The position numbers were made by a program, and so were the translations under genes. 64,000 bases of DNA from Caulobacter soli. GTDB taxonomy: Bacteria; Pseudomonadota; Alphaproteobacteria; Caulobacterales; Caulobacteraceae. The stretch lies in contig NZ_CP049200.1 of assembly GCF_011045195.1 (NCBI RefSeq), positions 62,001 through 126,000 of the forward strand, given 5' to 3'. The notes beneath the pieces are model-generated. The model was not told the origin of the DNA and ran no database searches. It worked only from the letters and a program-made list of their open reading frames with translations. Positions 536-57,457 of the stretch are shown piece after piece; the first letter of the stretch is position 1; every line of letters starts with the position of its first letter.

Positions 536-549
536 ATACACCTCTGCAT
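536..549. promoter_or_regulatory. Operator-like palindrome, ATACACCTCTGCAT
   Basis: One mismatch from ATACA-N4-TGTAT. It lies 80 bases upstream of the TonB receptor start. With the copy at 556-569 it forms a larger imperfect inverted repeat spanning 536-569, the two sites being 20 bp apart centre to centre, about two helical turns. Confidence 0.6.
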
Positions 550-555
550 TCGTCA

Positions 556-569
556 ATGCAGGTCTGTAT
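556..569. promoter_or_regulatory. Operator-like palindrome, ATGCAGGTCTGTAT
   Basis: One mismatch from ATACA-N4-TGTAT, in the opposite half to the mismatch of its partner at 536-549. The pair suggests cooperative binding of two repressor dimers at the receptor promoter (inference). Confidence 0.6.
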
Positions 570-694
570 CGCGCGGAGACGGCGGCTCGGCATGCTCAAA
601 AAATGGATGATGTCTGCCTAAAGTCCGGCGAAAGTCCTTATTTGTAAGTGTTTTCGCGGATCAGCCGGCGCCCGAATTCGTCCTCGGCTGCAAC

Positions 695-708
695 AGACAG
701 ATATGTAT
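695..708. promoter_or_regulatory. Weak operator-like palindrome, AGACAGATATGTAT
   Basis: One mismatch from ATACA-N4-TGTAT, 239 bases upstream of the receptor start. It could be an auxiliary site, or chance in an AT-rich patch. Confidence 0.35.
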
Positions 709-783
709 GTTTCTCCCGTAATACGATCGAGCCTGGTCGGCCGACCCGGCGCGCGGCGACGTCTGGAATCCTCGCGGCGCGGA

Positions 784-1377
784 TCAAGAGGGTTGGAGGG
801 CGCGAAGAGACGACGCGTCCGCGAGCTGCCGGTCGATCTGTCCTGCGGCCTGGTTGCGCAGTCGGGTCGACATCGCGTCCGTCAGGCGCGCGTGCGCGAC
901 GATGAGCAGGTCGCCGGTCCGCAACGCATGGTGCTGGTCATAGGCCCTGATCCGGTCCGAAAGGGAGGATCCGCCAGGCTGGGGGGCCAGAGGAGGCCCG
1001 GCCGCGCCGAACTCGTCGGCGGTGACCAGGACCGGTCCCAGAGTCAGGCGGCCGCCACGATCCAAGGCGGCGGCGACATAGCCCAGAACGCAGCGGAAGG
1101 GCCTGTCGGCTCCCAACGGCGCCGCGCCGATCACCGCGGCCAGGAGGCCTTGGCCTTCGAGATCGGGGTCATGAAACGAGCGCCTGAAATGTCGGCCGAT
1201 GGAAAGCGGCGCGGTCGGCTTCTCAGGCTCGACCCGGCCGTTCAGCGGTAACGCCGCGCGGCCTTCGCCGTAGGCGACGCGAGGGGCCCACGCCGGCAGC
1301 GTGCCGGCTAGATGGCGTACGGCGCCATCCTCCAGAAGGCCCCAATCGGTTGGGCCGCCGGGATGCACAAACCTCAT
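784..1377 (-). CDS. Divergent FAH-fold protein coupled to oxidoreductase 1
   Basis: A 197-residue protein whose start codon overlaps the stop of the upstream oxidoreductase gene (ATGA-type overlap), so it is probably translated with it. The N-terminus (MRFVHPGGPTDWGLLEDG) and the middle (DLEGQGLLAAVIG, VLGYVAAALDRG, GPVLVTADEFG) follow the layout of the fumarylacetoacetate hydrolase family. That family uses Glu-x-Glu and Asp metal ligands in ExE..AVVIG and GYTVANDVSAR. Here those positions look altered (EGQ; AAALD), and the protein is shorter than the usual 220-280 residues. It may be a non-catalytic or altered FAH-fold protein; its role beside branched-chain oxoacid oxidation is unknown. Confidence 0.6.
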   Translation of the reverse strand: MRFVHPGGPTDWGLLEDGAVRHLAGTLPAWAPRVAYGEGRAALPLNGRVEPEKPTAPLSIGRHFRRSFHDPDLEGQGLLAAVIGAAPLGADRPFRCVLGYVAAALDRGGRLTLGPVLVTADEFGAAGPPLAPQPGGSSLSDRIRAYDQHHALRTGDLLIVAHARLTDAMSTRLRNQAAGQIDRQLADASSLRALQPS

Positions 1378-17563: not shown

Positions 17564-20500
17564 TCAGGCGACTCGGGTGACGGGTGGAACCGACAGGGCG
17601 CAGGCCTGGATCAGCTTGGCGCGACGTTCGGCGTAGAGCTTCATGGCCTCCTCCTTCACCGGTCCGTAGCCGCGCACCATGTCCGGCAACTGGGCCAGGG
17701 CGGTGGCGGTGCTCAGGCCGACCTGGTCGAGACGGGCGCAGAGCTGGCCGATGGTCGCGGCGTACTCCCGCGCCAGCGCTCGCTCGGCCCGGCGCTCGGC
17801 GGTGGCGCCGAAGGGGTCGGCCCAGGTCCCGCGCAAGCCCTTCATCGCCGCCAGCAGGCCGAAGGCCTTGAAGATCCACGGGCCGAACTTGCGTTTGGCC
17901 GGACGGCCGGTGACAGGGTCGACGCGCGACAGGATCGGCGGGGCCAGCCAGACCGACAGCTTGCCGACTCCGGAGAACTGCGCCTCGAGCGCCTCTCGGA
18001 AGGCCGGCTCGGCATAGAGCCGCGCCACCTCGTACTCGTCCTTGTAGGCCATCAGCCGATAGGCGTTGACCGCGACGGCCCGCACGAAGGCCTCGCCCTT
18101 GACGCTCAACGGCGCGGCGGCGGCCTGGGCGCGCGCGACCAGCGTCCGGTAGCGCTCGGCGTAGGCGGCGTCCTGGTAGGCGGTCAGGTCGGCGACCCGG
18201 CGGGCGATCAGCGCGTCGATCGCTTCGTCGGCGGGCTTGGCGACCGGCGCGGCGGCGGCAAGACCCGCCATCGTCTCGACGGCGGCCAGGTCGACGGCGG
18301 CCATGCGCCCCCAGGCGAAGGCGCGCTTGTTCAACTCGACCGCCGCGCCGTTGGCCTCGATGGCCCGTTCGAAGGCTCGGGCCGAGACCGGGACAAGGCC
18401 CTTCTGCCAAGCGTAGCCGACCAGGAAGGTGTTGGCCGCGACGTTGTTGCCAAACAGGCCCTCGGCGATGCGGGTGGCGCTGACCAGGAAGCCCTTGTCG
18501 CCGGCCCGGCCCAGCAGGGTCTCGATCATCCGCGCGCTGGGCAGGGCCGCGTCGCGGTTGGTGACCCCGTCGGCGGTCGGGGTCTCGTCGCCGTTGAGAA
18601 CGATGGCGCCGCGTCCCTCGCCAAACTTGACCAGGGCGTCGGGGCTGGCGGCCACCACGCTGTCGGCGCCCAGCAGCAGGTCGACTTCACCGGCCCCGAT
18701 GCGCACGGCGTGAATGGCGTCGCTGCCCGAGGCGATGCGCACCTGGCTGACGACCGCCCCGTTCTTTTGGGCCAGGCCGGTGAAGTCCAGCACCGTGGCG
18801 GCCGCGCCGTCCAGGTGCGCGGCCGTGCCCAACAGAGCGCCGACCGTCAGCACGCCAAGACCGCCGATCCCGGCGACATAGATGTTGTAGACCCCTTGCG
18901 GCGTTGGGACAGAGGGTTCGGGCAGCGCGCCGAAGCGTTCAATCTCGAAGGCCTTGATCCGTGCGCCGTCGGGCTTGCGCAGCCTGGGCGCGGCGACTTC
19001 GACGAAGCTGGGGCAAAAGCCTTTGACGCAGGAAAAGTCCTTGTTGCAGCTGGACTGGTTGATCTTGCGCTTGCGGCCGAACGCGGTCTCCAGCGGCTCG
19101 ACGGCGATGCAGTTGGACTGAACCGAGCAATCGCCGCAGCCCTCGCAGACCCGCGGGTTGATGAACAGGCGCATGTCCGGGTCGGGGAAGTCGCCGCGCT
19201 TGCGACGGCGACGCTTCTCGGCCGCGCAGGTCTGCTCGTAGACGATGGCGGTGACGCCCGGAATCTGGCGCATCTCGCGCTGCAGGGCGTCCATCTCGTC
19301 GCGATGCTGGATGCGCACGCCGGCGGGAACCGTGCCGGCCTGGCGCCACTTGCCCGGGTCGTCGCTGACCAGACGGACCTGGCCCACGCCCTCGGCCAGC
19401 AGCTGGGCGATGATTTTCTCGGGCGTTGGCGAGCCTTCGGCCACCTGGCCGCCGGTCATGGCCACCGCGTCGTTGTAGAGGATCTTGTAGGTGATGTTGG
19501 CCTTGCCGGCGATCGCCGCGCGGATCGCCAGCAGGCCGCTGTGCTGATAGGTGCCGTCGCCCAGGTTCTGGAAGATGTGGCCGGTCGTGGAGAACGGCGC
19601 CGCGCCCAGCCATTGCATGCCCTCCCCGCCCATCTGGCTGATGGTCGAGGTCTTCAGCAGCGGTTGGGAGACGGCCATCACGTGGCAGCCGATGCCGCCG
19701 CCGGAGATCGAGCCGTCTGGGGTCTTGGTCGAGCTGTTGTGCGGGCAGCCCGAGCAGAAGAACGGCTGGCGCGCCGGGAAGGCGATGACCTTTCCGCTCG
19801 ACCGCCGGGTCGTCAGCCGCGCCAGGCGGTCGACCAGGCCGACAGGATCCTCGCCCTTCAGGCGGCTGACCAGGGCCGTGGCCACCATGTCGGGGGTGAA
19901 TTCCGAAATGACCGGCAACAGTTGGGCGCCGGCGTCGTCGGTCTTGCCGGTCACCCGGGTCCGCGCGGCGTTGCGGTTGAACAGCGCCGCCTTGATCTGA
20001 TCCTCGACCGTCGGGTTCTTTTCCTCGACGACGAGGATTTCCTGGGCGCCGTCGGCGAAGGCCAGCAGGGGTTCGACGGCCAGGGGCCAGCTCATCGCCA
20101 CCTTGTAGACCGACAGGCCCAGGGCCTCGGCCTCCTGCGCGCCCACGCCCAGGTCGGTCAGGGCCTGCATCAGATCCTGGTGGGCCTTGCCGACGGTGAC
20201 GACGCACAGGCGCTTGCGGCGGCTGGCCAGGATCGGGCGGTCCAGGCCGTTGGCCGCCGCCCAGCCGATCGCGGCGGGCAGGCGCTCCTCGATGGCCCGG
20301 CGCTCATACTCGGCGCGCTGGCCCGGCCAGGCAAGGCCCGGATCCCAGTTCAGGCCGTGGGCCGGGACCAGGTGATCGGGGCGAATGAAACGGGGATAGG
20401 CGTCCGGCAGCTCGAACGAGGCGGCGCTTTCGACCACCTCGGCGATGGTCTTCATGCCCACCCACAGGCCGCTGAACCGCGACAGGGCGATGCCCGCCAG

Positions 20501-21052
20501 GCCCAGGGTCAGGATCTCCGACACGTCGGCCGGCTGCAGCACCGGCATCAGCACCGCCTGGAAGATGCCGTCGGTCTGATGGGGAAAGATGGATGACTGG
20601 GCGGCGTGGTCATCGCCCCCAACGGCGAGCACGCCGCCCAGTCCCGACGTCCCGGTCATGTTGGCCATGCGAAACGCATCGCCCGTCCGGTCGACCCCGT
20701 TGCCCTTGCCGTACCAGATGCCGAACACGCCATCGACCTTGGCCGGCCCGAAGGCCTTGTGCATCTGGGCGCCCCACAGGGCGGTGGCGGCCAGATCCTC
20801 GTTGAGGCCCGGCTGGAACACCACGTCGTGGGCCGCCAGATGCTTCTGGGCCTTCCACAATTGTTGGTCATAGGCGCCCAGGGGCGAGCCGCGATAACCC
20901 GACACCAGCCCGCCGGTGTTCAGACCCATCGAACGGTCCAGCCGGCGCTGCATCATCGGCAGACGCACCAGGGCCTGGATGCCGGTCATGAAGGTGGGAC
21001 CGCTCTCCGCGTTGTAAATCGCGTCCAGGCTGGTGATCCGTTCCGCGGTCAT
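17564..21052 (-). CDS. Fused 2-oxoacid:ferredoxin oxidoreductase, copy 2
   Basis: A 1162-residue paralogue of the enzyme at 1374-4847 with the same order: FFCSGCPHN near residue 431, GIGCHVMAVSQP, thiamine diphosphate loop GDGTYQHSG..NDAVAMTGGQ, 4Fe-4S cysteines CEGCGDC near 634 and SSCNKDFSCVKGFC, gamma-type domain IYVAGIGGLGVLTVG, and the C-terminal domain with YKDEYEVARLYAEPAF. The start at 21052 (MTAERITSLD) has GGGAGC upstream; a longer in-frame extension is unlikely. It heads an operon running to 11684. The ATACA-N4-TGTAT operator lies 56 bases upstream, and a divergent Lrp gene begins at 21173. Confidence 0.92.
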   Translation of the reverse strand: MTAERITSLDAIYNAESGPTFMTGIQALVRLPMMQRRLDRSMGLNTGGLVSGYRGSPLGAYDQQLWKAQKHLAAHDVVFQPGLNEDLAATALWGAQMHKAFGPAKVDGVFGIWYGKGNGVDRTGDAFRMANMTGTSGLGGVLAVGGDDHAAQSSIFPHQTDGIFQAVLMPVLQPADVSEILTLGLAGIALSRFSGLWVGMKTIAEVVESAASFELPDAYPRFIRPDHLVPAHGLNWDPGLAWPGQRAEYERRAIEERLPAAIGWAAANGLDRPILASRRKRLCVVTVGKAHQDLMQALTDLGVGAQEAEALGLSVYKVAMSWPLAVEPLLAFADGAQEILVVEEKNPTVEDQIKAALFNRNAARTRVTGKTDDAGAQLLPVISEFTPDMVATALVSRLKGEDPVGLVDRLARLTTRRSSGKVIAFPARQPFFCSGCPHNSSTKTPDGSISGGGIGCHVMAVSQPLLKTSTISQMGGEGMQWLGAAPFSTTGHIFQNLGDGTYQHSGLLAIRAAIAGKANITYKILYNDAVAMTGGQVAEGSPTPEKIIAQLLAEGVGQVRLVSDDPGKWRQAGTVPAGVRIQHRDEMDALQREMRQIPGVTAIVYEQTCAAEKRRRRKRGDFPDPDMRLFINPRVCEGCGDCSVQSNCIAVEPLETAFGRKRKINQSSCNKDFSCVKGFCPSFVEVAAPRLRKPDGARIKAFEIERFGALPEPSVPTPQGVYNIYVAGIGGLGVLTVGALLGTAAHLDGAAATVLDFTGLAQKNGAVVSQVRIASGSDAIHAVRIGAGEVDLLLGADSVVAASPDALVKFGEGRGAIVLNGDETPTADGVTNRDAALPSARMIETLLGRAGDKGFLVSATRIAEGLFGNNVAANTFLVGYAWQKGLVPVSARAFERAIEANGAAVELNKRAFAWGRMAAVDLAAVETMAGLAAAAPVAKPADEAIDALIARRVADLTAYQDAAYAERYRTLVARAQAAAAPLSVKGEAFVRAVAVNAYRLMAYKDEYEVARLYAEPAFREALEAQFSGVGKLSVWLAPPILSRVDPVTGRPAKRKFGPWIFKAFGLLAAMKGLRGTWADPFGATAERRAERALAREYAATIGQLCARLDQVGLSTATALAQLPDMVRGYGPVKEEAMKLYAERRAKLIQACALSVPPVTRVA

Positions 21053-21107: not shown

Positions 21108-21121
21108 ATACACCTCTGTAT
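21108..21121. promoter_or_regulatory. Operator palindrome ATACACCTCTGTAT
   Basis: Exact match to ATACA-N4-TGTAT in the divergent gap between oxidoreductase 2 (start 21052) and Lrp 2 (start 21173). It lies beside a second, unrelated palindrome at 21134-21148, suggesting dual TetR and Lrp input. Confidence 0.7.
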
Positions 21122-32816: not shown

Positions 32817-32832
32817 GCGCATGGGAGTTGAG

Positions 32833-35889: not shown

Positions 35890-35923
35890 GTTCCCGGCCT
35901 CGCCGGAAGATTTCGCTCGCTCA

Positions 35924-40237: not shown

Positions 40238-40527
40238 TGCGCCGCTCCTGTCGTGAGTGAGGGCGCGCCCTCGCCCATCGGATAGACGGCGCGGATCTCA
40301 TGGGTGACGGTGTCGCGCGCCACGTTGAACCACTGGCGGCAACCGGCCGCGTGGACCCAACGCTCGAGGCTGAGGCCCTTTGGATTGACCCGGGTGAACA
40401 GATAGTCGCCCCATTGCTTGTCGGAAACCGCCTCGGGCGGCTCTGGACGGGTGATGTGGGCCTGGCCGCCGCAGCGGAACTCGAATTCGTCACGAGGCCC
40501 GCAGCACGGGCAATTGATGAGCAGCAT
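40234..40527 (-). CDS. soxD: Sarcosine oxidase delta subunit
   Basis: A 97-residue subunit binding zinc: MLLINCPCCGPRDEFEFRCGG at the N-terminus and HAAGCRQWFNVARDTVTHEI towards the C-terminus supply the cysteines and histidine. The segment RVNPKGLSLERWVHAAG is typical. It lies between soxB (10-base gap) and soxA (overlap), the usual order in soxBDAG operons. Confidence 0.96.
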   Translation of the reverse strand: MLLINCPCCGPRDEFEFRCGGQAHITRPEPPEAVSDKQWGDYLFTRVNPKGLSLERWVHAAGCRQWFNVARDTVTHEIRAVYPMGEGAPSLTTGAAQ

Positions 40528-40537: not shown

Positions 40538-41791
40538 TCAGTGCGCGATGCCGGAGGCCGCGGCCTCGTCGATCAAGGCGCCCGTGAAAAACCTGTTCAG
40601 GCCGAAGGGCGCGGCGATGTCGTGCGCCTGGCCGGTCGCCAGATGGTGGGCCAGGAGGTACCCGCCGGCCGGAATGGCCTTGAAGCCGCCGGTCCCCCAA
40701 CCGCAGTTGATGTAGACGCCCGGCGTCGGGGTCTCTCCGAGGATGGGGCTGGAATCCTGGACGACGTCGACGATGCCGGCCCAATGGCGCGCCAGGCGCA
40801 CCCGTCCCAGCGAGGGCATCTGGTCGGCCAGGGCCCCGGCGACCTGACGGATGGTCGGCGAGTTTCCGCGCTGGGCGTAGGAGGCGTAGTGGTCCAGCGC
40901 GCCGCCAAACACCAGCCCGCCCTTGTCCGACTGGCTGATATAGAGCCCGGTCGCCAGCGACAGCATCACCGTGTCGATGACCGGCTTGAGCGGTTCGGAC
41001 ACGAAGGCCTGCAGCGCATAGCTGGTGATCGGCAGTTCGAAGCCGGCCAACTGCGCCATGACCGATGAATGGCCCGCCACCGCCATGCCGACCTTGTCGG
41101 TCTCGATGACGCCGAGATTGGTTTCCACGCCGGTGACCCGGCCGGTCTGGTTCTTGAGGAAGCCGCGAACTTCGCAGTTTTGGATGATGTCGACGCCGAG
41201 CGCGTCGGCGGCCCGCGCGTAGCCCCAGGCCACCGCGTCATGGCGCGCCGTGCCGGCGCGCTTTTGCATGAAGCCGCCCCAGATCGGGTAGCGGGCGCCC
41301 GGCGAAGCGTCCAGCACCGGCAAGCGGCGCTTGACCTCGTCGGCCGAGATCATCTCGGCGTCGACGCCGTTGAGCTGCATGGCCCCCACCCAGCGCTGGG
41401 CGCCTTCCAGGTCGTGGCGGCTATGGGCGACCATGACCATGCCGCGCTGGCTGAACATCACATTGTAGTTTAGCTCGCGCGACAGCCCCTCATAGAGCTT
41501 CAGCGAGAAGTCATAGAGGCGCGCGCTGGCCGGATAATAGTAGTTTGACCGGATCACCGTGGTGTTGCGGCCGGTGTTGCCGCCGCCGAGCCATCCGCGC
41601 TCCAGGACCGCCACATTGCGCACGCCGTGGACCTTGGCCAGGTAGTAGGCGGTGGCCAGGCCGTGGCCGCCGCCGCCGATGATGATCACGTCGTATCGGC
41701 GCTTGGGCTGGGGCGAACGCCAGGCCGGCGACCACCCCTGCTGACCGCCCAGGCCTTCCAGAAACACTTTGAACGCGGAGTATTTTGTCAT
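40538..41791 (-). CDS. soxB: Sarcosine oxidase beta subunit
   Basis: A 417-residue flavoprotein catalysing oxidation of sarcosine to glycine with H2O2. FAD-binding motif YDVIIIGGGGHGLATAYYLA lies near residue 33. The histidine that covalently holds FMN in known enzymes is matched in TARHDAVAWGYARAADALG. The C-terminal INCGWGTGGFKAIPAGG is characteristic. ATG 41791 (MTKYSAFKVF) is chosen over an upstream TTG at 41809 that falls in the operator. The exact operator at 41809-41822 overlaps the expected -10 region downstream of a TTGACG (41849-41844). Confidence 0.96.
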   Translation of the reverse strand: MTKYSAFKVFLEGLGGQQGWSPAWRSPQPKRRYDVIIIGGGGHGLATAYYLAKVHGVRNVAVLERGWLGGGNTGRNTTVIRSNYYYPASARLYDFSLKLYEGLSRELNYNVMFSQRGMVMVAHSRHDLEGAQRWVGAMQLNGVDAEMISADEVKRRLPVLDASPGARYPIWGGFMQKRAGTARHDAVAWGYARAADALGVDIIQNCEVRGFLKNQTGRVTGVETNLGVIETDKVGMAVAGHSSVMAQLAGFELPITSYALQAFVSEPLKPVIDTVMLSLATGLYISQSDKGGLVFGGALDHYASYAQRGNSPTIRQVAGALADQMPSLGRVRLARHWAGIVDVVQDSSPILGETPTPGVYINCGWGTGGFKAIPAGGYLLAHHLATGQAHDIAAPFGLNRFFTGALIDEAAASGIAH

Positions 41792-41808: not shown

Positions 41809-41822
41809 ATACAGTAGTGTAT
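41809..41822. promoter_or_regulatory. Operator palindrome ATACAGTAGTGTAT before soxB
   Basis: Exact ATACA-N4-TGTAT match starting 17 bases upstream of the soxB ATG. On the minus strand a TTGACG (41849-41844), the -35 form of Caulobacter housekeeping promoters, precedes it, so a bound repressor would cover the -10 or start site. Confidence 0.72.
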
Positions 41823-41961: not shown

Positions 41962-43944
41962 TCAGGGCGCCGCTTGCAGGCGAAGGTGCTCGCCGAACCA
42001 GGACAGGATCCTGGCGGCGCTATCGAGATAGGCTGGATAGCCCCGCAGGCTGTGTCCATCGTTGGGATAGGTGACCAGCACGCTCTTGGCCCCCGCTTCG
42101 CAAAGCGACTGGTGAAATTCCAGGGCCTGGGTCGGCGGGGTGTTCTTGTCGAGCGCCCCGGCCATGACCAGGCAGGGCGTGGTGACGCGGTCGGCGAACA
42201 TCACCGGGCTGCGGCTGAAGAACAATCCGTCCGTCCGGCTGGACGAGCCGTCGAGAAACGCCAGGTCGAAATGCGGGATCTGGCTGGTTCGGTGCTGGCT
42301 GAACCAGTCGGTCACCGGCGAGATCGGCGCGGCGGCCGCGAAGCGCGTGTCCTGGGTCACCAGCCAGGCGGACATGTAGCCGCCATAGCTGGTGCCCGTG
42401 CAGGCCAGGCGTTCGGGGTCTGCCAGGCCGCTGGCGACCAGGTGATCGACGGCCGACAGCAGGTCGCCGGTGTCGGCGCCGCCCATGTCCCCTCTGACCA
42501 GGCGCGCGAAATCCTGGCCGCGGGTCGAGCTGCCGCGCGGATTGGGATAGAGAACCGCGCAGCCCAAGGCCGCCAGCAGCGGCGCGGCCCGGCCCCGGCC
42601 CATCCAGCGGCCGCGATTGGCCCAGATGGGGCCGCCATGAATATCCAGCACCAGCGGCGCGGGCCCTTTGGCGTCGTCGGGCGTCACCAGCCAGCCGTGG
42701 ATCTCCAGGCCGTCGGGCGCGGTCCAGACCGCCGGTCCCATCGTCCCGCGGCCGGTCATGGCCTCGGCCGCGGCCGGCGCGGCCAGCGATCGTACGGTGC
42801 GCGGCGTCCCCGCCTCGATGATCGCCACCCGAGGGGCCTGGTCATAGGCCTCGGCGACCACCAGGCTGCGCCCTCCGGGCAGGGGTTTGGCCGAGGGATA
42901 CCAGGCGCCGCAGGTCAGGCCGCTCGAGCGCCACAGTTCGCTCGCCTGGCCGTCGGCCAGGCGATAGTCGCCGATCACCGTGTCGAACGCCGCCTGGCCG
43001 GCATAATGCAGGACATCGTCGTCCCTCCAGGCCAGGCTGGAGACTTCCACCTCGCCGGTCGGGATCGGCCGGGCCGCGCCGTCGGCGCCGATCACCATCG
43101 CCTGGCCGCAGATGATGCCGCGATCGCTGCAGAGGGCCTCGACAAAGGCTAGGCGGCGCCCGTCGGGCGACCCCGTCGCCAGGCCGATCTGGTCGCGGGG
43201 GCGATAGACGATCTCCTCGGCCCCGTCGTCGAGCGCGATGCGCCGCAGGCTGGAAGCGTACCACGTCCCCTCGCTATGGTCGTCGCTGCACACCGCCGCG
43301 ATATGGGCCGGACCCCACCAGGTCGCCTCCCAGACGTTGGTTTCGGCGCGGGAGACCCGAGAAAGGTTCGACGACTCCACATCGAGCACCCACAGCCTTC
43401 GCCACAGATGGCCTTCCTGTCCGGTGCGCACCTCGGGCAGCCAGGCGGGGCCTTGCGCGGCGGCCTTGGTGGCCAGGCCGCCCTGATAGCCGGCCAGGTC
43501 CGCGCCGAGCCCCGCCACGACCATCAGCAGCCGCCGCCCGTCGGGCGACCATTCCAACTGCTCGACCAGGCCCTCGATCTGGCGCGTGAGCATCGGGCGA
43601 GCGTCCGCCGCGAACACGCTCAACAGCTCCTCGCCGGACGCGTTCGACACCATGCAGGCCAGCCGCGATCCGTTCGGACAAGGCCGCGCCATGCGGCTGG
43701 CGCGGCCAAACAGGTCGTTCAGCGCCCCGGTCTGCAGATCGATCTCATAGAGCCGTTCCGACGGGCCGTCGGCCAGCGCCCCGTGGAAGGCCTGGCCGTT
43801 GAAATAGGCGCGCCGCCCGTCGGCGGTCGGCGCGCAGTCGTCGGCGGAATAGACGTGGCCGACGCCCGGCGCGAACAGCGCGGTGTAGAAATCCTCGACG
43901 GCCTTGAAGGCCGTCGATTGTCGAATATCGCTCTGCATGGCCAT
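41962..43944 (-). CDS. S9C-type acylaminoacyl peptidase, copy 2
   Basis: A 660-residue cytoplasmic S9 peptidase. Propeller motifs QLEWSPDGRRLLMVVAG and TGSPDGRRLAFVEALCSD precede the catalytic domain: LDIHGGPIWANRGRW, YPNPRGSSTRGQDFARL, nucleophile TGTSYGGYMSAWL, Asp in AGALDKNTPPTQALEF and His in YPNDGHSLRGY. It is a paralogue of 32833-34830; the two flank the sarcosine oxidase block. ATG 43938 (MQSDIRQ) is an alternative start. An operator copy lies 59 bases upstream at 44004-44017, in the divergent gap with a TetR gene. Confidence 0.92.
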   Translation of the reverse strand: MAMQSDIRQSTAFKAVEDFYTALFAPGVGHVYSADDCAPTADGRRAYFNGQAFHGALADGPSERLYEIDLQTGALNDLFGRASRMARPCPNGSRLACMVSNASGEELLSVFAADARPMLTRQIEGLVEQLEWSPDGRRLLMVVAGLGADLAGYQGGLATKAAAQGPAWLPEVRTGQEGHLWRRLWVLDVESSNLSRVSRAETNVWEATWWGPAHIAAVCSDDHSEGTWYASSLRRIALDDGAEEIVYRPRDQIGLATGSPDGRRLAFVEALCSDRGIICGQAMVIGADGAARPIPTGEVEVSSLAWRDDDVLHYAGQAAFDTVIGDYRLADGQASELWRSSGLTCGAWYPSAKPLPGGRSLVVAEAYDQAPRVAIIEAGTPRTVRSLAAPAAAEAMTGRGTMGPAVWTAPDGLEIHGWLVTPDDAKGPAPLVLDIHGGPIWANRGRWMGRGRAAPLLAALGCAVLYPNPRGSSTRGQDFARLVRGDMGGADTGDLLSAVDHLVASGLADPERLACTGTSYGGYMSAWLVTQDTRFAAAAPISPVTDWFSQHRTSQIPHFDLAFLDGSSSRTDGLFFSRSPVMFADRVTTPCLVMAGALDKNTPPTQALEFHQSLCEAGAKSVLVTYPNDGHSLRGYPAYLDSAARILSWFGEHLRLQAAP

Positions 43945-44003: not shown

Positions 44004-44017
44004 ATACAGTCCTGTAC
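44004..44017. promoter_or_regulatory. Operator-like palindrome ATACAGTCCTGTAC
   Basis: One mismatch at the last base; the inner TACAG-TC-CTGTA is a perfect palindrome. It lies in the gap between the S9C peptidase (start 43944) and the divergent TetR gene (start 44126), the standard place for a TetR operator. Confidence 0.68.
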
Positions 44018-44125
44018 TAGATTGGCAACACGTCGCGGCGACCAAGGCCCTTGCGCCGCCCTTTGGCGCGCTGGCGCCGGGTGGCCAAAGACGATAGTGT
44101 TTTGATTCAAGACGCGATCACAGGG

Positions 44126-44782
44126 ATGCCAATCGTGCTCAAAAGCACCGCCGAGCGGGGGATTTCCACCGAGGACTGGATCGCGGTGGCCAAGGCCACC
44201 CTGATCAAGGAGGGCATCGCCGGGGTGAAGATCGACCGGTTGGCCAAGAAGGCCGGCGTGACGCGGGGCGGGTTCTATTATCGCTTCAAAAGCCTGCAGG
44301 GCATGCTTGACGCGCTGATCGAGGATTGGCGGGCCACCAACCATCAACCCATCATCGACACGCTCGATGCGCCCGGCTCGCCGCCGGAGCGCTTCCGGTC
44401 GCTGATGCGGCTATGGATGGACGAGCGCAACTACAACCCCGACTACGACGCGGCGATCCGGGCCTGGTCACGGGTTTCGCCCAAGGTCGCCGATGTCGTG
44501 CACGAGGTCGACGACCTGCGGATCGAGGCGTTCAAGCGCCTGTTCGTCGACGCCGGCTATGATGAGGACGAAGCCTTCGTCCGAGCCCGGATCACCTACT
44601 TCCACCAGGTGGGCTACTACGCCATGGGCATGCGCGAGTCGGCCAAGCGGCGCGAGGAGCTCAGCGAGTTCTATTATCGTGTGCTGACCGGCTTTCGCGG
44701 CGGTGAGTTCAAGCATCGTCCGCCGACGCCGGAGCCCGCCGCGCGGGCCAAGGCCTCGCGCCGCCGGGACGTGAGCGCCTAG
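44126..44782 (+). CDS. TetR/AcrR family regulator A
   Basis: A 218-residue regulator starting at 44126 (MPIVLKSTAERG) behind AGGG; a longer start at 44051 is less likely. The N-terminal helix-turn-helix is IDRLAKKAGVTRGGFYYRFKS, followed by a ligand-binding domain with RAWSRVSPKVADVVHEVDDL and ITYFHQVGYYAMGM. The tail is Arg/Lys-rich. Operator-like palindromes lie on both sides (44004-44017 and 44791-44804). It is one of two candidates for the repressor binding ATACA-N4-TGTAT in this window. Confidence 0.9.
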   Translation: MPIVLKSTAERGISTEDWIAVAKATLIKEGIAGVKIDRLAKKAGVTRGGFYYRFKSLQGMLDALIEDWRATNHQPIIDTLDAPGSPPERFRSLMRLWMDERNYNPDYDAAIRAWSRVSPKVADVVHEVDDLRIEAFKRLFVDAGYDEDEAFVRARITYFHQVGYYAMGMRESAKRREELSEFYYRVLTGFRGGEFKHRPPTPEPAARAKASRRRDVSA

Positions 44783-44790: not shown

Positions 44791-44804
44791 ATACAGGCCT
44801 GAAT
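44791..44804. promoter_or_regulatory. Operator-like palindrome ATACAGGCCTGAAT
   Basis: One mismatch from the consensus, with a perfect CAGGCCTG core, nine bases after the TetR A stop and about 210 bases before the exact site at 45001-45014. It could be an auxiliary site for the GGT-family promoter. Confidence 0.5.
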
Positions 44805-45000: not shown

Positions 45001-45014
45001 ATACAGTTCTGTAT
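45001..45014. promoter_or_regulatory. Operator palindrome ATACAGTTCTGTAT
   Basis: Exact match, 54 bases before the GGT-family ATG (45069) and overlapping an AT-rich TTTGATAAT that could be a -10 element. Identical in all 14 bases to 30432-30445. Confidence 0.75.
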
Positions 45015-45068
45015 CGCCCGGGTGTCATCGCCGTCGGGGCCAGAAGAACACGCATGGGGAGATCCGAC

Positions 45069-46799
45069 ATGGCTCACAGCTCGCCCACCGACGCCGCGGC
45101 GATCGCCGCGAACCTGAGGGACTTCGACTACATCGTGAACCCCGGCCCCAAGGCCCCGGTCACCGGGCTGAAGGCCGCGGTCAGCACCGACAACGCCATC
45201 GTCACCGAAACCATGTTGCGGGTGCTGCGCGAGGGCGGCAACGCCGTCGACGCGGGCATCGCCGGCTGCCTGGTGCAGGCCGCGGTCGAGCCGTTCATGA
45301 CCAACCACACCGGCACGGTGACCTTCCTCTACTATGAGGCCAAGACCGGCCAGTACCACCAGCTCGACAGCGCCGGCTTCATGCCCTCGGGCCTGGCGCC
45401 GTTCAAGCCGGTGCCGCCGCAGCCCGCCGGCTACGCGTCCATGCCGCCCAGCGCCTGCATTCCCGGCTACATGCCCGGCCTGAAGGCCATCTTCGAACGC
45501 TTCGCCACCCGGCCCTGGGCCGAGCTTTGCGCCGACGCGATCCGTTGGGCCGAGGACGGCCACCCCGTGTCCAGCTTCGAATACTACGTCAACACCTGGG
45601 GCGCGGACTTCACCACCTTCTTCTCCGAGGGCCGGGCCTTTTACCGCCCCGACGGCCACTTCACGCCCGTCGGACACCGTTTCCGTCCGCCGGGCATGGC
45701 CGAGACGCTGCGCAAGGTGGCCGAGCACGGCCCCGACCACATGATCACCGGCGACTGGGCCAGGGCGTTTGTCGCCAAGGCCAACGACATGGGCTGGAAG
45801 ATCACGCTTGATCACATGACCGAGACGCCGCCCCGCTGGCTGGAGCCCTTGCGTTTCCGGCACCGCGATCACGAGATCGTCTCGTTGAACGTTCCCCAGC
45901 AGCAGGGCGCCTATATCGCCCTGGCCCTGGGCGTGCTGCGCGAGCTGGACCTGAAGGACGTCGAGCCGCAGTCCGCCGAGCACTACTATTATCTAGGCCA
46001 CGCGCTGCGTCTGGCGCAGATCCACAGCGGCTTCATCACCGACACCACCGTGGCCGACGCGGCGGTGGACGTCGTCACCAACCCCGAGCATCACAAGCAG
46101 TTGGCGCGCCTGATCAAGGGCCTCATGCCGAAGGTCGACCTGACCGAGCACAGCCGCCTGGTCGGCGGGCCCGGCATGGTCAGCGGCCTGTCGCTCTATG
46201 GCGGCCTGGGCAAGCCGACCCGCGGCCGCAGCGACAGCAAACAGCCGACCGGCAGCTGCGAGCTGTCCATCGTCGACGCCGAGGGCAACTGGGTGCAGAT
46301 GATGAACACCCTGCAGTCGGGCGGCATCCCGGGCATGGTGGTGGAAGGCATTCCGATGGTCGGCACCCACGCCACCTTCGGCGGCCTGACCACGGCGATC
46401 GACGGGCGCCTGTTCAAGGGCGCGCGTCTGCGCCAGTGCATCGGCAACACCTTCGTGCTCAAGGACGGCAAGCCGGTCTTCTCCCTCGGCTCGCCGGGGA
46501 ACGTCCACTGCACCGTGCCCCAGGTCCTGGCCTATCTGCTGGAGTTCGGCTACGGGCCCGACGACGCGGTGGCCGCGCCCCGGATCCTGCCGATGGGCGA
46601 GGACAGCTCCCTGGTGCTCGAGGATCGGCTCAGCGACGAGACCATCGACGGCCTCGCGGCCCTGGGCCTCAACGTCAAGGTCAGCGAAGCCTGGGACTTC
46701 CACATGGGGTCCTTCGCCATGTGCTACCGCGACGACGACGGCTTGATCGGCACGGTCGCCGATCCCCGCCGCTGCGCCGTCGCCGACGGACTGCGCTGA
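45069..46799 (+). CDS. Gamma-glutamyltransferase family protein with altered nucleophile region
   Basis: A 576-residue Ntn-hydrolase family protein: STDNAIVTETMLRVLREGGNAVDAGIAG, NHTGTVTFLYY, SPGNVHCTVPQVLAYLLEFG. ATG 45069 is preceded by GGGGAGAT; an in-frame ATG at 45054 contains that site. Classical enzymes self-cleave before the Thr of TTHYSVVD. Here the aligned stretch reads SCELSIVDAEGNW, so Ser (or the nearby Thr of PTGS) would be the nucleophile if processing occurs. No signal peptide is evident, unlike periplasmic GGT. It may hydrolyse gamma-glutamyl or other amides. It heads GGT-M32-amidohydrolase under an exact operator. Confidence 0.85.
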   Translation: MAHSSPTDAAAIAANLRDFDYIVNPGPKAPVTGLKAAVSTDNAIVTETMLRVLREGGNAVDAGIAGCLVQAAVEPFMTNHTGTVTFLYYEAKTGQYHQLDSAGFMPSGLAPFKPVPPQPAGYASMPPSACIPGYMPGLKAIFERFATRPWAELCADAIRWAEDGHPVSSFEYYVNTWGADFTTFFSEGRAFYRPDGHFTPVGHRFRPPGMAETLRKVAEHGPDHMITGDWARAFVAKANDMGWKITLDHMTETPPRWLEPLRFRHRDHEIVSLNVPQQQGAYIALALGVLRELDLKDVEPQSAEHYYYLGHALRLAQIHSGFITDTTVADAAVDVVTNPEHHKQLARLIKGLMPKVDLTEHSRLVGGPGMVSGLSLYGGLGKPTRGRSDSKQPTGSCELSIVDAEGNWVQMMNTLQSGGIPGMVVEGIPMVGTHATFGGLTTAIDGRLFKGARLRQCIGNTFVLKDGKPVFSLGSPGNVHCTVPQVLAYLLEFGYGPDDAVAAPRILPMGEDSSLVLEDRLSDETIDGLAALGLNVKVSEAWDFHMGSFAMCYRDDDGLIGTVADPRRCAVADGLR

Positions 46800-46870: not shown

Positions 46871-48397
46871 ATGACCGACCGCCCCAACGACAACCGCGCC
46901 TACGCCACCCTCAGCGAGCGCTTCTCCACGGCCAGCAAGCTGGCCGGAGCCCGCGCGCTGCTGTTCTGGGACAGCCAGACCAACATGCCCGCCGGCGGCG
47001 CCTGGGCGCGCGGGGAGGAGATGGCCGCCATCGACGCGGTGTCGTCCGACCTGCTGGCCGCGCCGGACTCCATGGACCTGCTGGAGGCGGCCGACGAGGC
47101 TCTCGACGCCCTGAGCCCGCCTGAACGGGCCAACCTGGTCGAGATGCGGCGCATCGCCCGTCACCAGGCCGCCGCGCCCAAGGCGCTGCAGGTCGAAAAG
47201 GCGCGCCTGATCGCGGCCCTGCAGCAGGACTGGCTGGCCGCCAAGCAGGACGATGATTTTCTGCGCTTCGCCAGGGGCTTTGAGAAGCTGTTGCCCGTCC
47301 ACCGCGAAATCGCGGCCCTGAAGGGTCAGGCGCTGGGCCTGTCGCCCTACGACGCCTTGATGGACGAGGTCGATCCGGGGCTGACGACCGCGACGGTCGA
47401 TCCCATCTTCGCCGACCTTGAGGCGTATCTGCCGGCCCTGCTGACCGAGGTGGTCGAACGCCAGGCCGGCTGGCCGGACCCCATCCCTTTCCAGGGCGAT
47501 TTCTCGGTCGAGCGCCAACGCGCCCTGGCCCAGGCGCTGCTGGAGGCGGTCGGACACACCAACGCCAACTGCCGGATCGACAACGCGCCCCATCCCTTCG
47601 CCCTGGCCGGCTCGCCCGGCGACAACCGCTTCACCACCCGGTTCGACGCCGACAACATCCGCTTTGCGATCCTGGCCACGCTGCACGAGGCGGGGCATTC
47701 GCTCTATGAGGCGGGGTTGCCGCGCGACCTGGCCTTCAGTCCGGTCGGCGCGGCGCGGGGCGCCACCGCCCACGAGAGTCAGTCGCTGATGGTGGAGATG
47801 CAGGCGGGCCGCAGCCGGGAGTTCATCGGTTGGCTGGCGCCCCAGATGCAGGCGGCGTTCGGCGGGCCGGCCGAAGGCTGGACGGTCTCCAACGTCCTCA
47901 ACGCCTATCGGCGGGTCGGTCAGGGCTACATTCGGGTCGAGGCCGATGAGATCTCCTATCCCCTGCACATCATCCTGCGCTACCGGCTCGAGCAGGGCCT
48001 GCTGTCGGGCGATCTGAAGGTCGCCGATCTGCCGGAGGCGTGGAACGCGCTGTCCCAGCGATTGTTTGGCCGCCGCCCCCCCAACAACGCGCAAGGCTGC
48101 CTGCAGGACATCCACTGGGCCATGGGATTGTTCGGCTATTTTCCCAACTACGCCCTGGGCGCGACCTTCGCCGCCCAGCTGTTCGAACGGGCCAACCAGG
48201 ACGATCCGGGCATACGGGCGGGGCTGGCCGACGGCGACTTTGGCCCCTATCGCGACTGGGTGCGCCCGCGCATCCACCAGCGCGCCAGCCAGGTCTCCTT
48301 CGCCGACCTCGTCCAGGACGCCACCGGAGCGCCGTTCTCGGCCGAGGCGCTCAAGCGCCACCTTCGTCACCGCTACCTGGAAGAAGAAGCGCCCTAG
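46871..48397 (+). CDS. Carboxypeptidase Taq, M32 family
   Basis: A 508-residue zinc carboxypeptidase. The metal motif HEAGH lies near residue 272, followed by HESQSLMVEMQAGRS with the third ligand, then RRVGQGYIRVEADEISYPLHI (in part EADEISYPLHI) and DIHWAMGLFGYFPNYALGA, all M32 signatures. It releases C-terminal residues of broad specificity from peptides in the cytoplasm. The gap after the GGT-family gene is 71 bases and contains an imperfect inverted repeat (CTGTTCG..CGAACAG, 46818-46860). Confidence 0.95.
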   Translation: MTDRPNDNRAYATLSERFSTASKLAGARALLFWDSQTNMPAGGAWARGEEMAAIDAVSSDLLAAPDSMDLLEAADEALDALSPPERANLVEMRRIARHQAAAPKALQVEKARLIAALQQDWLAAKQDDDFLRFARGFEKLLPVHREIAALKGQALGLSPYDALMDEVDPGLTTATVDPIFADLEAYLPALLTEVVERQAGWPDPIPFQGDFSVERQRALAQALLEAVGHTNANCRIDNAPHPFALAGSPGDNRFTTRFDADNIRFAILATLHEAGHSLYEAGLPRDLAFSPVGAARGATAHESQSLMVEMQAGRSREFIGWLAPQMQAAFGGPAEGWTVSNVLNAYRRVGQGYIRVEADEISYPLHIILRYRLEQGLLSGDLKVADLPEAWNALSQRLFGRRPPNNAQGCLQDIHWAMGLFGYFPNYALGATFAAQLFERANQDDPGIRAGLADGDFGPYRDWVRPRIHQRASQVSFADLVQDATGAPFSAEALKRHLRHRYLEEEAP

Positions 48398-48465
48398 GGA
48401 TCGCCTTGGCGATCGGCGCCGCCGACCATGATCCATCGACTTCACCATCTCGCGAGGACCGCGTC

Positions 48466-49710
48466 ATGAGTTCTGTGCTTTTCACCAACGCGGCGCTGTT
48501 CGACGGCGTTGGTCCTGACTTGCGCCGCGGCGCCAGCGTCCTGGTCGCCGACGGCCTGATCCAGGAGGTCGCCGACGGCCCCCTTCCCGCCCCGGCCGGG
48601 GCGGAGGTGATCGATCTGGCCGGCCGCACCCTGATGCCCGGCCTCATCGACGCCCATGTCCACATCTGGTGGACCGATCTGGACATCACCCGGGTGATCA
48701 CCCGCCGCAGTGAATACCTGGCCGGATTCGCCTTTCGGGCCCTGAGCCGGATGCTCAACCGCGGCTTCACCACGGTGCGCGACGCGGGCGGCACCGACGT
48801 GGCCTATGTGCTGGCCATGCAGGACGGCCTGCAGCCGGGGCCCCGGCTGCTGCACGCGGGGCGGTTCATGTCCCAGACCGGCGGCCACGGCGACTTCCGT
48901 CGCTTCGGCGATTTCGACGGCATGTGCGGATGCGGTCTGCGCCATCATGGCATGGGACGGATGTCGGCCATCGTCGACGGCCCCGACGCCATGCGCGCGG
49001 CGATCCGCGAGGAATTCCGACTGGGCGCGCGCCAGATCAAGCTGATGGGCTCGGGCGGCGCCAGCAGTCCCGCCGATCCGCTTCATCAACAGCAGTTCAG
49101 CGACGCGGAGATCCTGGCGGCGGTCGAGGAATGCGCCCGTCACGAGTCCTATGTGATGGCTCATTGCCATCCGCCCGAGGCCATCGCCCGCTGCGCGCGC
49201 CTGGGGGTTCGCTCCATCGAGCACGCCACCCTGATCAATCAAGCGGCGGCCGACGAGGTGCTGGCCGCCGGCGCCTACGTGGTTCCGACCTTGGCGGTCA
49301 TTTTCGCTTTGCTCGACGACGGCGCGGCCCTGGGCATGCCGCCCGCCAATGTCGAGAAGGTGAGGATCGCCGCGGCGGGGGCCCTGGAAGGGTTGCAGAT
49401 CATGCGTCAGACCGGCCTCAAGGTCGGGTTCGGCACCGATCTGCTGGGCCCTCAGCAAGACCGCCAAGGCAGCGAATTTGGCCTGCGGGCCCAGGTCTTC
49501 TCACCGATCGAGATCCTGCGCCAGGTGACCAGCGTCAACGCCGAGCTTCTGCAGATGGGCGGCCAGATCGGCGTGGTGGCCCCGGGAGCCGTCGCCGATC
49601 TGATCGTCGTCGACGGCGATCCGCTGCAGGACATCACCTGTCTGGGCCAGGGCGGCGACAACCTGCCGATCATCCTGCAGGGCGGACGGTTCCACAAGCG
49701 GACACTCTAA
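48466..49710 (+). CDS. Amidohydrolase, dipeptidase/prolidase-like
   Basis: A 414-residue metal-dependent amidohydrolase: LIDAHVHIWW (HxH, near residue 62), RQIKLMGSGGAS (candidate carboxylated Lys near 191), YVMAHCHPPEAI, GVRSIEHATLI and GFGTDLLGPQ (His, His, Asp ligands). The group includes Caulobacter proteins annotated as Xaa-Pro dipeptidases and shown to be dipeptidases of other specificity. No signal peptide is seen. It follows the M32 gene by 68 bases and fits the final step of peptide breakdown; its exact dipeptide substrate is unknown. Confidence 0.88.
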   Translation: MSSVLFTNAALFDGVGPDLRRGASVLVADGLIQEVADGPLPAPAGAEVIDLAGRTLMPGLIDAHVHIWWTDLDITRVITRRSEYLAGFAFRALSRMLNRGFTTVRDAGGTDVAYVLAMQDGLQPGPRLLHAGRFMSQTGGHGDFRRFGDFDGMCGCGLRHHGMGRMSAIVDGPDAMRAAIREEFRLGARQIKLMGSGGASSPADPLHQQQFSDAEILAAVEECARHESYVMAHCHPPEAIARCARLGVRSIEHATLINQAAADEVLAAGAYVVPTLAVIFALLDDGAALGMPPANVEKVRIAAAGALEGLQIMRQTGLKVGFGTDLLGPQQDRQGSEFGLRAQVFSPIEILRQVTSVNAELLQMGGQIGVVAPGAVADLIVVDGDPLQDITCLGQGGDNLPIILQGGRFHKRTL

Positions 49711-55844: not shown

Positions 55845-56105
55845 ATGACCAAGTATGATCCTCTCCGACGCCATCTGGCGCGCGCCAAGGTCGCTTCGCT
55901 CGATCTGGATTTCACCGATGTCGAACGCATCATCGGCCGTCTGCTGCCCAAGGCCGCCCGAGACGAGGCCTGGTGGCGCGAGCCGCCGCTCTCGTCCGTC
56001 GCGCCGCAGATCGAGGCCTGGACGGCGGCCGGCTATCGCGCCCGACTGCTCGGCGCGGAGACGGTGCGTTTCGAACGTGTTGATCCGCGCGCCAAGTCGA
56101 GCTGA
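55845..56105 (+). CDS. Small DUF7662-like protein
   Basis: An 86-residue protein (MTKYDPLRRHLARAKV; FTDVERIIGRLLPKAAR; AWWREPPLSSVAPQIEAWTAAGYRARLL). The pattern of YDPL at the N-terminus, a LxxxArxxxxWW centre and an aromatic C-terminus is common in small uncharacterised bacterial proteins of this type. The start at 55845 (MTKYDPL) is preferred over an upstream in-frame ATG at 55812. Function unknown. The 282 bases before it, back to the M19 start, hold nothing I recognise. Confidence 0.75.
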   Translation: MTKYDPLRRHLARAKVASLDLDFTDVERIIGRLLPKAARDEAWWREPPLSSVAPQIEAWTAAGYRARLLGAETVRFERVDPRAKSS

Positions 56106-56178
56106 GGTCGGCGGCTTGGCGCTTGCCCCCGGGCCTCCTGATGGGCATGGAAGGCGCTGCTTCCAATCCGCGCCGCCG

Positions 56179-56679
56179 ATGATGACGCCCCAAGCCTTTC
56201 GCGCCCTCGCCCTTCGTCCCGTTCGACGCTCCGAGCGCCGCCTCGCCCGGACATGCGCGGTCGCCGGCGCGGTCCTGGCCTTGGCCGCGGCGCTGCGGGC
56301 CGGGCCTGTTCTTGCCGATCCCTGCGCCGCCATCCCCGACAAGGGACCGCTGCCGGCCTATCTCTCACGTGGGGCCAGCTTCTCGGGGCCGGTGACCTAT
56401 GTCGGAGACGGCGACAGCCTCTGCGTGGCGCTGGGACCTCATCCCGACCGCTGGGTCGAGGTGCGTTTGGCCGACTTCTACGCGCCGGAGCTGCGCGCGC
56501 CGGGCGGCGCGGCGGCCAAGGCCGCGCTCGACCGGCTGACGGCCGGACAGCAAGTGCGTTGCACGGCCGATCATCGCAGCTATGACCGGATCGTGGCGAT
56601 TTGCCGGATCAACGCTCGCTCGCTGGGTGATCTGCTGCGCGCCCAGGGCGTTGTCGAAGGCGGGCGCGGGCGAAAATGA
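56179..56679 (+). CDS. Staphylococcal nuclease-like (thermonuclease family) protein
   Basis: A 166-residue protein with an N-terminal hydrophobic segment (AVAGAVLALAAALRAGPVLA), so exported or anchored. The mature part has the SNase fold motif YVGDGDSLCVALG, VEVRLADFYAPELR, and SYDRIVAICRI, then SLGDLLRAQGVVE. In canonical SNase the second motif is RLxxxDxPE; here the Asp position is Tyr (RLADFYAPE), while both Arg positions are kept. Activity is uncertain. It follows the small DUF gene by 73 bases. Confidence 0.8.
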   Translation: MMTPQAFRALALRPVRRSERRLARTCAVAGAVLALAAALRAGPVLADPCAAIPDKGPLPAYLSRGASFSGPVTYVGDGDSLCVALGPHPDRWVEVRLADFYAPELRAPGGAAAKAALDRLTAGQQVRCTADHRSYDRIVAICRINARSLGDLLRAQGVVEGGRGRK

Positions 56680-56769
56680 GCTCTCAAGCCCTGGTCCGAT
56701 CAGCGCGTCCCGCCCTGCGGCGGCGGCGGACGGGGGCCGCGAGGGCCAGCAGGCCCTAGGGCCGCGAAC

Positions 56770-57405
56770 CTAGGCTGGATCGGACGCAGGCGAGAGCGCG
56801 ACGGACCCGATGTCATAGGCCCGGGCGAAGGTCTCGACCGCCGCGGCCGCCGCCTCGACCAGGTCCGCGTCGGGGGCCGAGGCGATCGCGCCCTCCAGCA
56901 AGCGTTGGAACGGGCCAGCCTCGATCAAGGCGTGGAACTGCACGACCGCGCGCCAGGGGTCGGCGCGGCGCATGCGGCCCTCGTCCATGGCGACGGCGAA
57001 ATCTTCGGCCAGACGCGAGAGGCCTGGTTTGCGGCCGTTTTCGAAGAACAGCTTGCCAAGATCCGAACGCGGGCCTTCGGCATAGATGACCCTGCGAAAC
57101 CCCAGGATCTCATCCTGGGCGATGAAGCGCAGGAACTTGATCGCAAAATCGGCCAAGGCAGCGCGCAGATCCTGGTTCTGGTGGAAGCTGTCGAACAACG
57201 GACCGACCTGGGCCGCGCCCTTTTCCAGCATGACCGCGACGAACAGCGCCTCCTTGGAGCCGAAGTAGTGATAGAGCGTCTGCTTGGATCCGCCGGCCCG
57301 CACGGCCACCTCGGCCATGCTCGCCGCGTCGTAGCCGCGTTCGAGGAAGACGCTCTTGCCGGCTTCCAGAATGGCCAGGCGGCGCTTTTCGCTTTTGACC
57401 CTCAT
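56770..57405 (-). CDS. TetR/AcrR family regulator B
   Basis: A 211-residue TetR protein: RRLAILEAGKSVFLERGYDAASM, helix-turn-helix MAEVAVRAGGSKQTLYHYFGSKEALF near residues 30-55, then a ligand-binding domain. Its only upstream motif is the exact palindrome ATACACTTTTGTAT at 57444-57457, 38 bases before the ATG, the textbook position for an autorepressor. It is therefore the strongest candidate to recognise all the ATACA-N4-TGTAT sites. It lies after pcaD but has its own promoter region. Confidence 0.93.
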   Translation of the reverse strand: MRVKSEKRRLAILEAGKSVFLERGYDAASMAEVAVRAGGSKQTLYHYFGSKEALFVAVMLEKGAAQVGPLFDSFHQNQDLRAALADFAIKFLRFIAQDEILGFRRVIYAEGPRSDLGKLFFENGRKPGLSRLAEDFAVAMDEGRMRRADPWRAVVQFHALIEAGPFQRLLEGAIASAPDADLVEAAAAAVETFARAYDIGSVALSPASDPA

Positions 57406-57443
57406 CGTTCTCTCGCGCTGGATCTTGTTGGTTGGACCGACCC

Positions 57444-57457
57444 ATACACTTTTGTAT
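57444..57457. promoter_or_regulatory. Operator palindrome ATACACTTTTGTAT before TetR B
   Basis: Exact match to ATACA-N4-TGTAT in the 65-base gap between pcaD (end 57471) and TetR B (start 57405). It probably mediates autoregulation and links TetR B to the same sites near peptidase and sarcosine genes. Confidence 0.75.

Follow-up and report, generated by a model that had tools for sequence, protein, structure and literature searches.

We analyzed a 64,000-nucleotide stretch of Caulobacter soli DNA (hereafter the window), which comprises bases 62001-126000 of contig C2 (420,517 bp) in a genome of two contigs and 5.68 Mb. The palindrome ATACA-N4-TGTAT recurs there between genes. We consider it highly probable that this motif is the operator of TetR A, encoded in the window, and/or its paralogue TetR C, encoded elsewhere on C2, and that the bound protein represses genes for peptide import, peptide cleavage, and N-methyl demethylation until a ligand releases it. 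Comparison of sequences across genomes gives good support to motif binding by the family of these two proteins (the A family; TetR A and/or TetR C).

A pattern scan of the window found six exact copies (21108, 30432, 30560, 41809, 45001, and 57444) and five copies with one mismatch (536, 556, 695, 44004, and 44791), which confirms all 11 coordinates and mismatch counts of an original prediction made by eye. Dinucleotide shuffling gave an expectation of 0.05 matches at up to one mismatch (100 shuffles; maximum 1), and the GC content assumed in the original prediction (about 68 percent) is close to the 66-71 percent measured in 4-kb windows. The sites had also been described as intergenic. All 11 fall outside the gene calls in a window whose non-genic share is 6.1 percent (p about 5e-14, if the sites are independent); these calls were hand-edited, and the count of 11 requires that the start of oxidoreductase 2 be placed at 21052 instead of at the start of its longest open reading frame (ORF). 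With the hand-set starts, a start codon lies 17-249 bp downstream of every site and within about 100 bp for nine of the 11, the farther ones being 695 and 44791. The sites are as follows.

536..569, predicted double operator, some 80 and 100 bp upstream of a TonB receptor gene (start about 456, running leftwards out of the window)
695..708, operator-like site with one mismatch, about 239 bp before the same TonB receptor gene
21108..21121, predicted operator, exact, 55 bp before the oxidoreductase 2 gene
30432..30445, predicted operator, exact, 81 bp before the DPP-type peptidase gene
30560..30573, predicted operator, exact, 28 bp before the prolyl oligopeptidase gene
41809..41822, predicted operator, exact, 17 bp before soxB (soxB-D-A-G-purU-folD run)
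44004..44017, predicted operator with one mismatch, upstream of both tetR A (by 63 bp) and the S9C-like peptidase gene (by 59 bp)
44791..44804, operator-like site with one mismatch, just after tetR A and 249 bp before the gamma-glutamyltranspeptidase (GGT) gene
45001..45014, predicted operator, exact, 39 bp before the GGT gene
57444..57457, predicted operator, exact, 38 bp before tetR B

A genome-wide scan, which had been suggested as a check of the motif, placed nine of nine exact sites on C2 and none on the other contig, C1 (5.26 Mb). At up to one mismatch, 27 sites were found, 21 on C2 and six on C1; because a control pattern, the motif read backwards, gave 14 such matches genome-wide, the C1 sites were regarded as background. 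TetR C and the further C2 sites escaped the original prediction because they lie outside the window.

C2 5768-6427, TetR C, paralogue of TetR A
C2 6707, site before an esterase gene
C2 8869, site before a phenylalanine hydroxylase gene, divergent from an Lrp gene
C2 19029/19049, double site before a second GGT gene
C2 296516, site with one mismatch, some 78 bp upstream of a bestrophin-family gene
C2 304769, site before a TonB receptor gene, followed by an amidase gene
C2 419848, site before a third GGT gene

Additional C2 sites were found at 19309, 259532, and 416215, the last of them within an ORF. An open GGT frame spans the end and start of C2, so this contig is probably circular. In the flanks of 108 distinct sites, a symmetric AC/GT extension was the sole conserved feature, and no clear conserved -35/-10 elements were found beside the sites. 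The double operators at window positions 536-569 and C2 19029-19062 share a 20-bp period, a near-identical 6-bp spacer (TGACGA/TGACGG), and the layout ATACA-N4-TGCAT-TGACG(A/G)-ATGCA-N4-TGTAT; one precedes a TonB receptor gene and the other a GGT gene. These two are perhaps cooperative, or perhaps a recent copy.

The proposed regulator encoded in the window is the following.

44081..44782, plus strand, TetR A (233 amino acids, GTG start; recognition helix VTRGGFY, Arg62)

TetR A matched TetR_N (PF00440) with 42.1 bits (cut-off 24, E 7e-11). Its structure model (mean pLDDT 85.7) contains helices 51-58 and 63-68, which form the helix-turn-helix, and further helices between residues 72 and 203 (pLDDT about 86-98 in ten-residue blocks), as in the helical ligand-binding domain of the family. 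With Foldseek, the model matched TetR-family chains at TM about 0.5-0.6. The C-terminal half matched no Pfam family at E 0.001, and no NCBIfam model came near its cut-off for TetR A. TetR A shares 39 percent identity with TetR C across 204 residues. The one-mismatch site at 44004, 63 bp upstream of tetR A, is the palindrome at its own promoter.

To compare loci from other genomes, we used the best 80 of 203 relatives, found from a 10-sequence alignment, with up to 8 kb on each side. An exact site stood near the TetR gene in 33 of the 80 loci (counted from -500 to +950 bp of the match) and a site with up to one mismatch in 48 (counted from -500 bp to a point 300 bp beyond the gene). None of 19 permuted palindromes of the same letters occurred near any of these 80 TetR genes. 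In an unbiased scan of 1024 pentamers with gaps of 0-9, ATACA with gap 4 ranked first with 33 loci, and the next pattern, which was GC-rich, reached 12. Over the whole loci, 88 exact sites were counted in 54 of the 80, versus six for the 19 permutations together. These counts support the earlier proposal of one regulon under a TetR regulator. TetR A homologues are rare in the order, occurring in eight of 200 genomes with the present one included. At eight order-level homologue loci from other genomes, four had an exact site in a 3.5-kb locus and two more had a one-mismatch site. In that search, 172 of the 200 genomes gave no match; among the genomes listed by name, none of the others in the genus matched TetR A at E 1e-20 or below, and another search gave one weak same-genus match (G037, 1e-21).

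The operator sequence co-varies with residue 62, which lies just before the recognition helix (63-68) in the TetR A model: Arg with ATACA, Lys with ATACG, and Thr, Val, or Gly with ATAGR. Within 700 bp of the gene, ATACA was found for 42 of 94 distinct Arg62-Gly proteins, and ATACG or ATAGR for none. Of nine Lys62 proteins, seven had ATACG, one had ATACC, and one had none; an unbiased scan restricted to the Lys62 set again placed ATACG with gap 4 first (7/9). The ATAGR pattern stood near four of the six Thr/Val/Gly62 proteins and was defined after these four loci had been seen, which counts against this part of the code. Arg-Ser/Thr proteins with SRSSFY- or SRTSFY-type helices had ATACA, ATACG, or ATAGR in none of 28 cases within the same distance, and the best candidate operator for the SRT proteins was GACCA-N4-TGGTC (5/11). 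In the tree, the Thr/Val/Gly62 proteins were nested among Arg proteins, and one Arg protein with ATACA (L074) fell inside the Lys clade on a long branch. Judged from these sequences, the operator type has perhaps changed two to four times, each time in the expected direction; related proteins are not independent events in this count.

The genes next to the window sites suggest what the regulator controls.

17564..21052, minus strand, oxidoreductase 2, a fused 2-oxoacid:ferredoxin oxidoreductase (POR + DUF6537; Pfam; start set from sequence)
27888..30350, minus strand, DPP-IV-like S9 peptidase (signal-like N-terminus by eye)
30602..32731, plus strand, prolyl oligopeptidase (S9A; Pfam), divergent from the DPP-IV-like gene
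32821..34830, plus strand, S9 peptidase (Pfam), by its position probably in the prolyl oligopeptidase operon
35017..35976, minus strand, folD (Pfam)
35924..36781, minus strand, purU, formyl-THF deformylase (TIGR00655 over cut-off; the longest ORF extends too far, to 37180)
36781..37335, minus strand, soxG (PF04268, 40.3 bits, cut-off 21; TIGR01375, 75 bits, below its cut-off of 144)
37313..40237, minus strand, soxA (TIGR01372 over cut-off; PDB relatives 1vrq/2gag)
40234..40527, minus strand, soxD (Pfam SoxD 2e-37; TIGR01374 over cut-off)
40538..41791, minus strand, soxB-type beta subunit (TIGR01373, 667.7 bits, cut-off 529; PDB relatives 3ada/1vrq; TetR A-linked clade)
41962..43944, minus strand, S9 peptidase (S9C-like; Pfam), divergent from tetR A
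45054..46799, plus strand, GGT homologue (Pfam; PDB relatives)
46871..48397, plus strand, M32 carboxypeptidase (Pfam), by its position probably in the GGT operon
48040..49710, plus strand, prolidase-like amidohydrolase ORF (Pfam; true start later than 48040)
49732, AraC gene, further along the GGT-side gene run

The closest solved relatives of the amidohydrolase were 3mkv and 3feq, one of which is named a prolidase. The alpha, beta, and delta subunits of heterotetrameric sarcosine oxidase are present, as soxA, soxB, and soxD exceed their NCBIfam cut-offs; the gamma subunit is present by PF04268, with the TIGR01375 match below its cut-off.

Peptide use and sarcosine-type demethylation, which the original prediction connected on the basis of this window, are linked in other genomes as well. 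Sox genes were present in 50 of the 80 A-family loci. TonB receptor genes accompanied 21 of these 50, versus none of 40 sox loci without an A-family TetR; for peptidases the counts were 22/50 versus 1/40, and for PurU/FolD 28/50 versus 0/40. Of twenty other stretches of the same genomes, none contained a TonB receptor gene, three contained a peptidase gene, and none contained PurU/FolD. The motif itself was absent from all 40 control sox loci and all 20 other stretches. Only queries derived from the window and from the rest of C2 were used for the gene counts, as queries from the relatives' loci would be circular. A SoxD match was present in 114 genomes, and the control sox loci, from 38 of them, were hand-picked among the matches listed: they had high scores, lay for the most part at a distance from contig starts, and belonged to genomes without a listed A-family TetR. 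Four were shorter than 16 kb, and the TetR A query matched none of the 40. The other stretches came from 12 genomes and from hand-chosen, not random, places. Taxonomy is a possible confounder of the comparison, since A-family loci often come from sphingomonads, and the sox controls were drawn from different families within the class.

We also assigned the 119 ORFs adjoining the 88 exact sites in relatives, reading families on one representative per cluster and scanning small clusters in part. The TetR gene itself accounted for 24, TonB receptors for 17, and soxB-type genes for 14 (plus one of the wider DAO family), followed by nucleoside hydrolase (12) together with 2OG-Fe oxygenase (8), both in a Mesorhizobium/Kaistia-type branch, and Rieske oxygenase (5). 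Rarer neighbors were a POT peptide transporter, S15, M3, and S10 peptidases, purU, folD, MFS proteins, and alpha/beta hydrolases. Branched-chain oxoacid oxidation, the other function that the original prediction had tied to the motif, keeps its one site in this genome (21108), and a homologue of the fused oxidoreductase was found in only one of the 80 relatives' loci.

The SoxB proteins linked to A-family TetRs also form a group of their own. In a tree of pieces over 300 amino acids (36 A-linked and 42 control sequences), 35 of the 36 A-linked SoxB proteins, including that of the window, fell on one branch (100/98). They did not group with the structurally solved enzyme, 3ADA, which clustered with 38 control sequences (99/98). 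Outside both groups were one A-linked sequence (L101) and four controls (L249, L252, L257, and L258), and these five were left out of the position comparison. Five positions differed strongly between the groups, two of them just after a conserved GTGGFK segment: the A-linked proteins have FKAIPxGG there, versus mostly FKATPGSG in the controls listed and FKGTPGAG in 3ADA.

Based on these data, we propose that a TetR dimer occupies promoters, in most cases 17-100 bp upstream of the start codon, and keeps its targets, including its own gene, repressed; repression is suggested by the protein family and the site positions. A small molecule from the breakdown of peptides or N-methyl amino acids would release it. 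TonB receptors would import peptides, and S9 prolyl peptidases and GGT, in operons with the M32 carboxypeptidase and the prolidase-like hydrolase, would cut them. The SoxBDAG-type enzyme would then demethylate an N-methyl amino acid and feed FolD/PurU, with some amino-acid oxidation alongside. Our best reading is thus a regulon for import and breakdown of peptides bearing N-methyl groups or proline, the exact substrate being presumed. The prolyl oligopeptidase OphP acts on backbone N-methylated peptides and accepts N-methylglycine, N-methylalanine, or Pro at P1 (PMC12235650, seen as an excerpt), which by analogy makes a chain from peptidase to SoxBDAG plausible: prolyl-type peptidases would cleave at N-methyl or proline positions, and the SoxBDAG-type enzyme would demethylate the products, with transfer to the folate pool (FolD, PurU). 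A broader idea, that this is a widespread catabolic system for N-methylated (tertiary-amide) peptides, combining TonB import, N-methyl-tolerant prolyl peptidases, a distinct SoxBDAG clade, and one TetR class with a one-residue operator code, is put forward as a tentative and rather doubtful possibility. Some loci come from sphingomonads that are named after microcystin or were obtained from bloom samples, a hint that cyanobacterial peptides may be among the natural sources. Such strains degrade microcystins. Our check of a microcystin link was confined to a literature search, which yielded nothing useful.

The data are accounted for almost equally well by conventional use of sarcosine, controlled by a regulator of peptide scavenging. 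According to this plausible, if less than probable, account, the regulon would serve general scavenging of peptides and amino acids, and the sox operon would perform usual sarcosine or glycine-betaine catabolism under a shared regulator. The range of targets, with phenylalanine hydroxylase, 2-oxoacid oxidoreductase, GGTs, and an esterase, fits it, as do the sarcosine-oxidase cut-offs passed by SoxA, SoxB, and SoxD and the fact that PurU beside soxBDAG is already known (PMC3691474, in the part available). It is harder to reconcile with the presence of sox near 50 of 80 A-family TetRs when the 40 other sox loci contain one peptidase and no TonB receptor, and with the separation of the A-linked SoxB clade from the structurally solved enzyme.

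The second TetR-family protein of the window was considered as a binder, alone or together with TetR A, as had been proposed originally.

56770..57405, minus strand, TetR B (AefR-like C-terminal domain; Pfam)

An exact site lies 38 bp before its gene, as would be expected of an autoregulated TetR. The motif was found at none of 26 TetR B homologue loci, even at one mismatch, and these included same-genus homologues with 66-67 percent identity; one of the 26 was a paralogue on C1. TetR B and TetR A could not be aligned beyond short stretches, and their C-terminal domains belong to different families. We therefore regard TetR B as a probable target, and its role as a binder as unlikely. The AraC gene at 49732 and two Lrp genes were set aside as candidate regulators, since the sites are accounted for by their link to the A family. 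That the motif serves maintenance or DNA structure of the 420-kb replicon is very improbable: the confinement of all nine exact sites to C2 would fit, but the sites are close to start codons of metabolic genes, the motif occurs beside A-family TetR genes in other genomes, one of them a complete chromosome record (L145), and it changes with the TetR helix residue.

Several observations weigh against regulation of peptide genes by TetR A through this operator. Of 29 loci of more remote homologues, sampled across the class, only six had an exact site, and 52 of the 94 Arg-Gly loci lacked one within 700 bp. At 12 Mesorhizobium/Kaistia-type loci, the site lay some 1.2 kb upstream, where it precedes a nucleoside hydrolase gene collinear with the TetR gene, and the targets there are not peptide genes. 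Prolyl-type hydrolases occurred in 27 of 80 A-family loci versus three of 20 other stretches, a difference that is not significant (p 0.17). Furthermore, the homologues are often of recent common ancestry, so that the counts are not independent, and the data do not separate TetR A from TetR C.

As a local TetR regulon, the system is of a known kind. TetR A resembles TetR/AcrR repressors in its TetR_N domain, all-helical model, own-gene site, and recognition helix 63-68. Its closest solved relatives by sequence, in the N-terminal part only, are TtgR, Mce3R, MtrR, and AcrR, and by fold they include EthR, DarR, and FasR. It differs from these repressors in that its predicted targets are catabolic and all on one replicon, and in its C-terminal half without a Pfam family. 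Among the matches listed from the open-access literature (titles and abstract openings), no TetR regulator of such sox/TonB/peptidase loci was found. The nearest was AmtR, a TetR-family nitrogen regulator of Corynebacterium glutamicum, which controls creatine and creatinine utilization genes that lead to sarcosine (PMC8864220). AmtR belongs to the Actinomycetota, and the operator quoted for its homologues is TAtCTGTCa-n2-cGACAGATAT; the excerpt of that paper mentions neither TonB receptors nor peptidases for AmtR. PheR of Sphingobium was also considered as prior art; the text consulted treats it as an IclR-family protein.

For sarcosine and betaine genes, the AraC-type GbdR and XRE-family candidates have been discussed as regulators (PMC3691474, excerpt), and sigma-54/SoxR is reported for Bacillus thuringiensis (PMC4941409). 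The window resembles known soxBDAG-purU operons in its gene order (soxB-D-A-G-purU) and in SoxA and SoxB, whose best matches are to heterotetrameric sarcosine oxidase. It differs from them in its TetR regulator, in place of a GbdR-type AraC activator, in the adjoining TonB receptor and peptidase genes, and in its separate SoxB clade. OphP shares the POP fold of serine peptidases and demonstrates that N-methyl-tolerant chemistry exists; it is a fungal biosynthetic macrocyclase (PMC12235650, same excerpt), to which the S9 enzymes of the window are likened by analogy. What looks new is the class of regulator, its operator code, and the connection of peptide use with a SoxB clade of its own. A motif noticed by eye becomes a regulator-operator pair that can be tested across Pseudomonadota and whose specificity is predicted to switch with one residue. 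In addition, a SoxB subfamily annotated as sarcosine oxidase is placed in a peptide-use setting, which suggests a breakdown route for N-methylated peptides.

A few further observations were made. C2 carries two fused indolepyruvate-oxidoreductase-like genes (window 1374-4946 and 17564-21052), and a site precedes the second only, which is the first gene of a same-strand run. Three plasmid loci of Aminobacter and Pseudosulfitobacter (L279-L281) carry a nucleoside hydrolase-TetR pair, one of them with amino acid transporter genes. We rejected the idea that the motif characterizes the whole genus; exact sites were present in five of 60 other genomes of the genus. Two genomes of the genus (G036 and G013) each have two exact sites 48-49 bp apart and no further exact site. 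In another (G018), the control pattern TATGT-N4-ACATA is present 92 times without a mismatch, as an unrelated repeated palindrome; elsewhere in the genus it occurs 19 times in G039, 16 times in G013, 13 times in G037, and otherwise 0-4 times.

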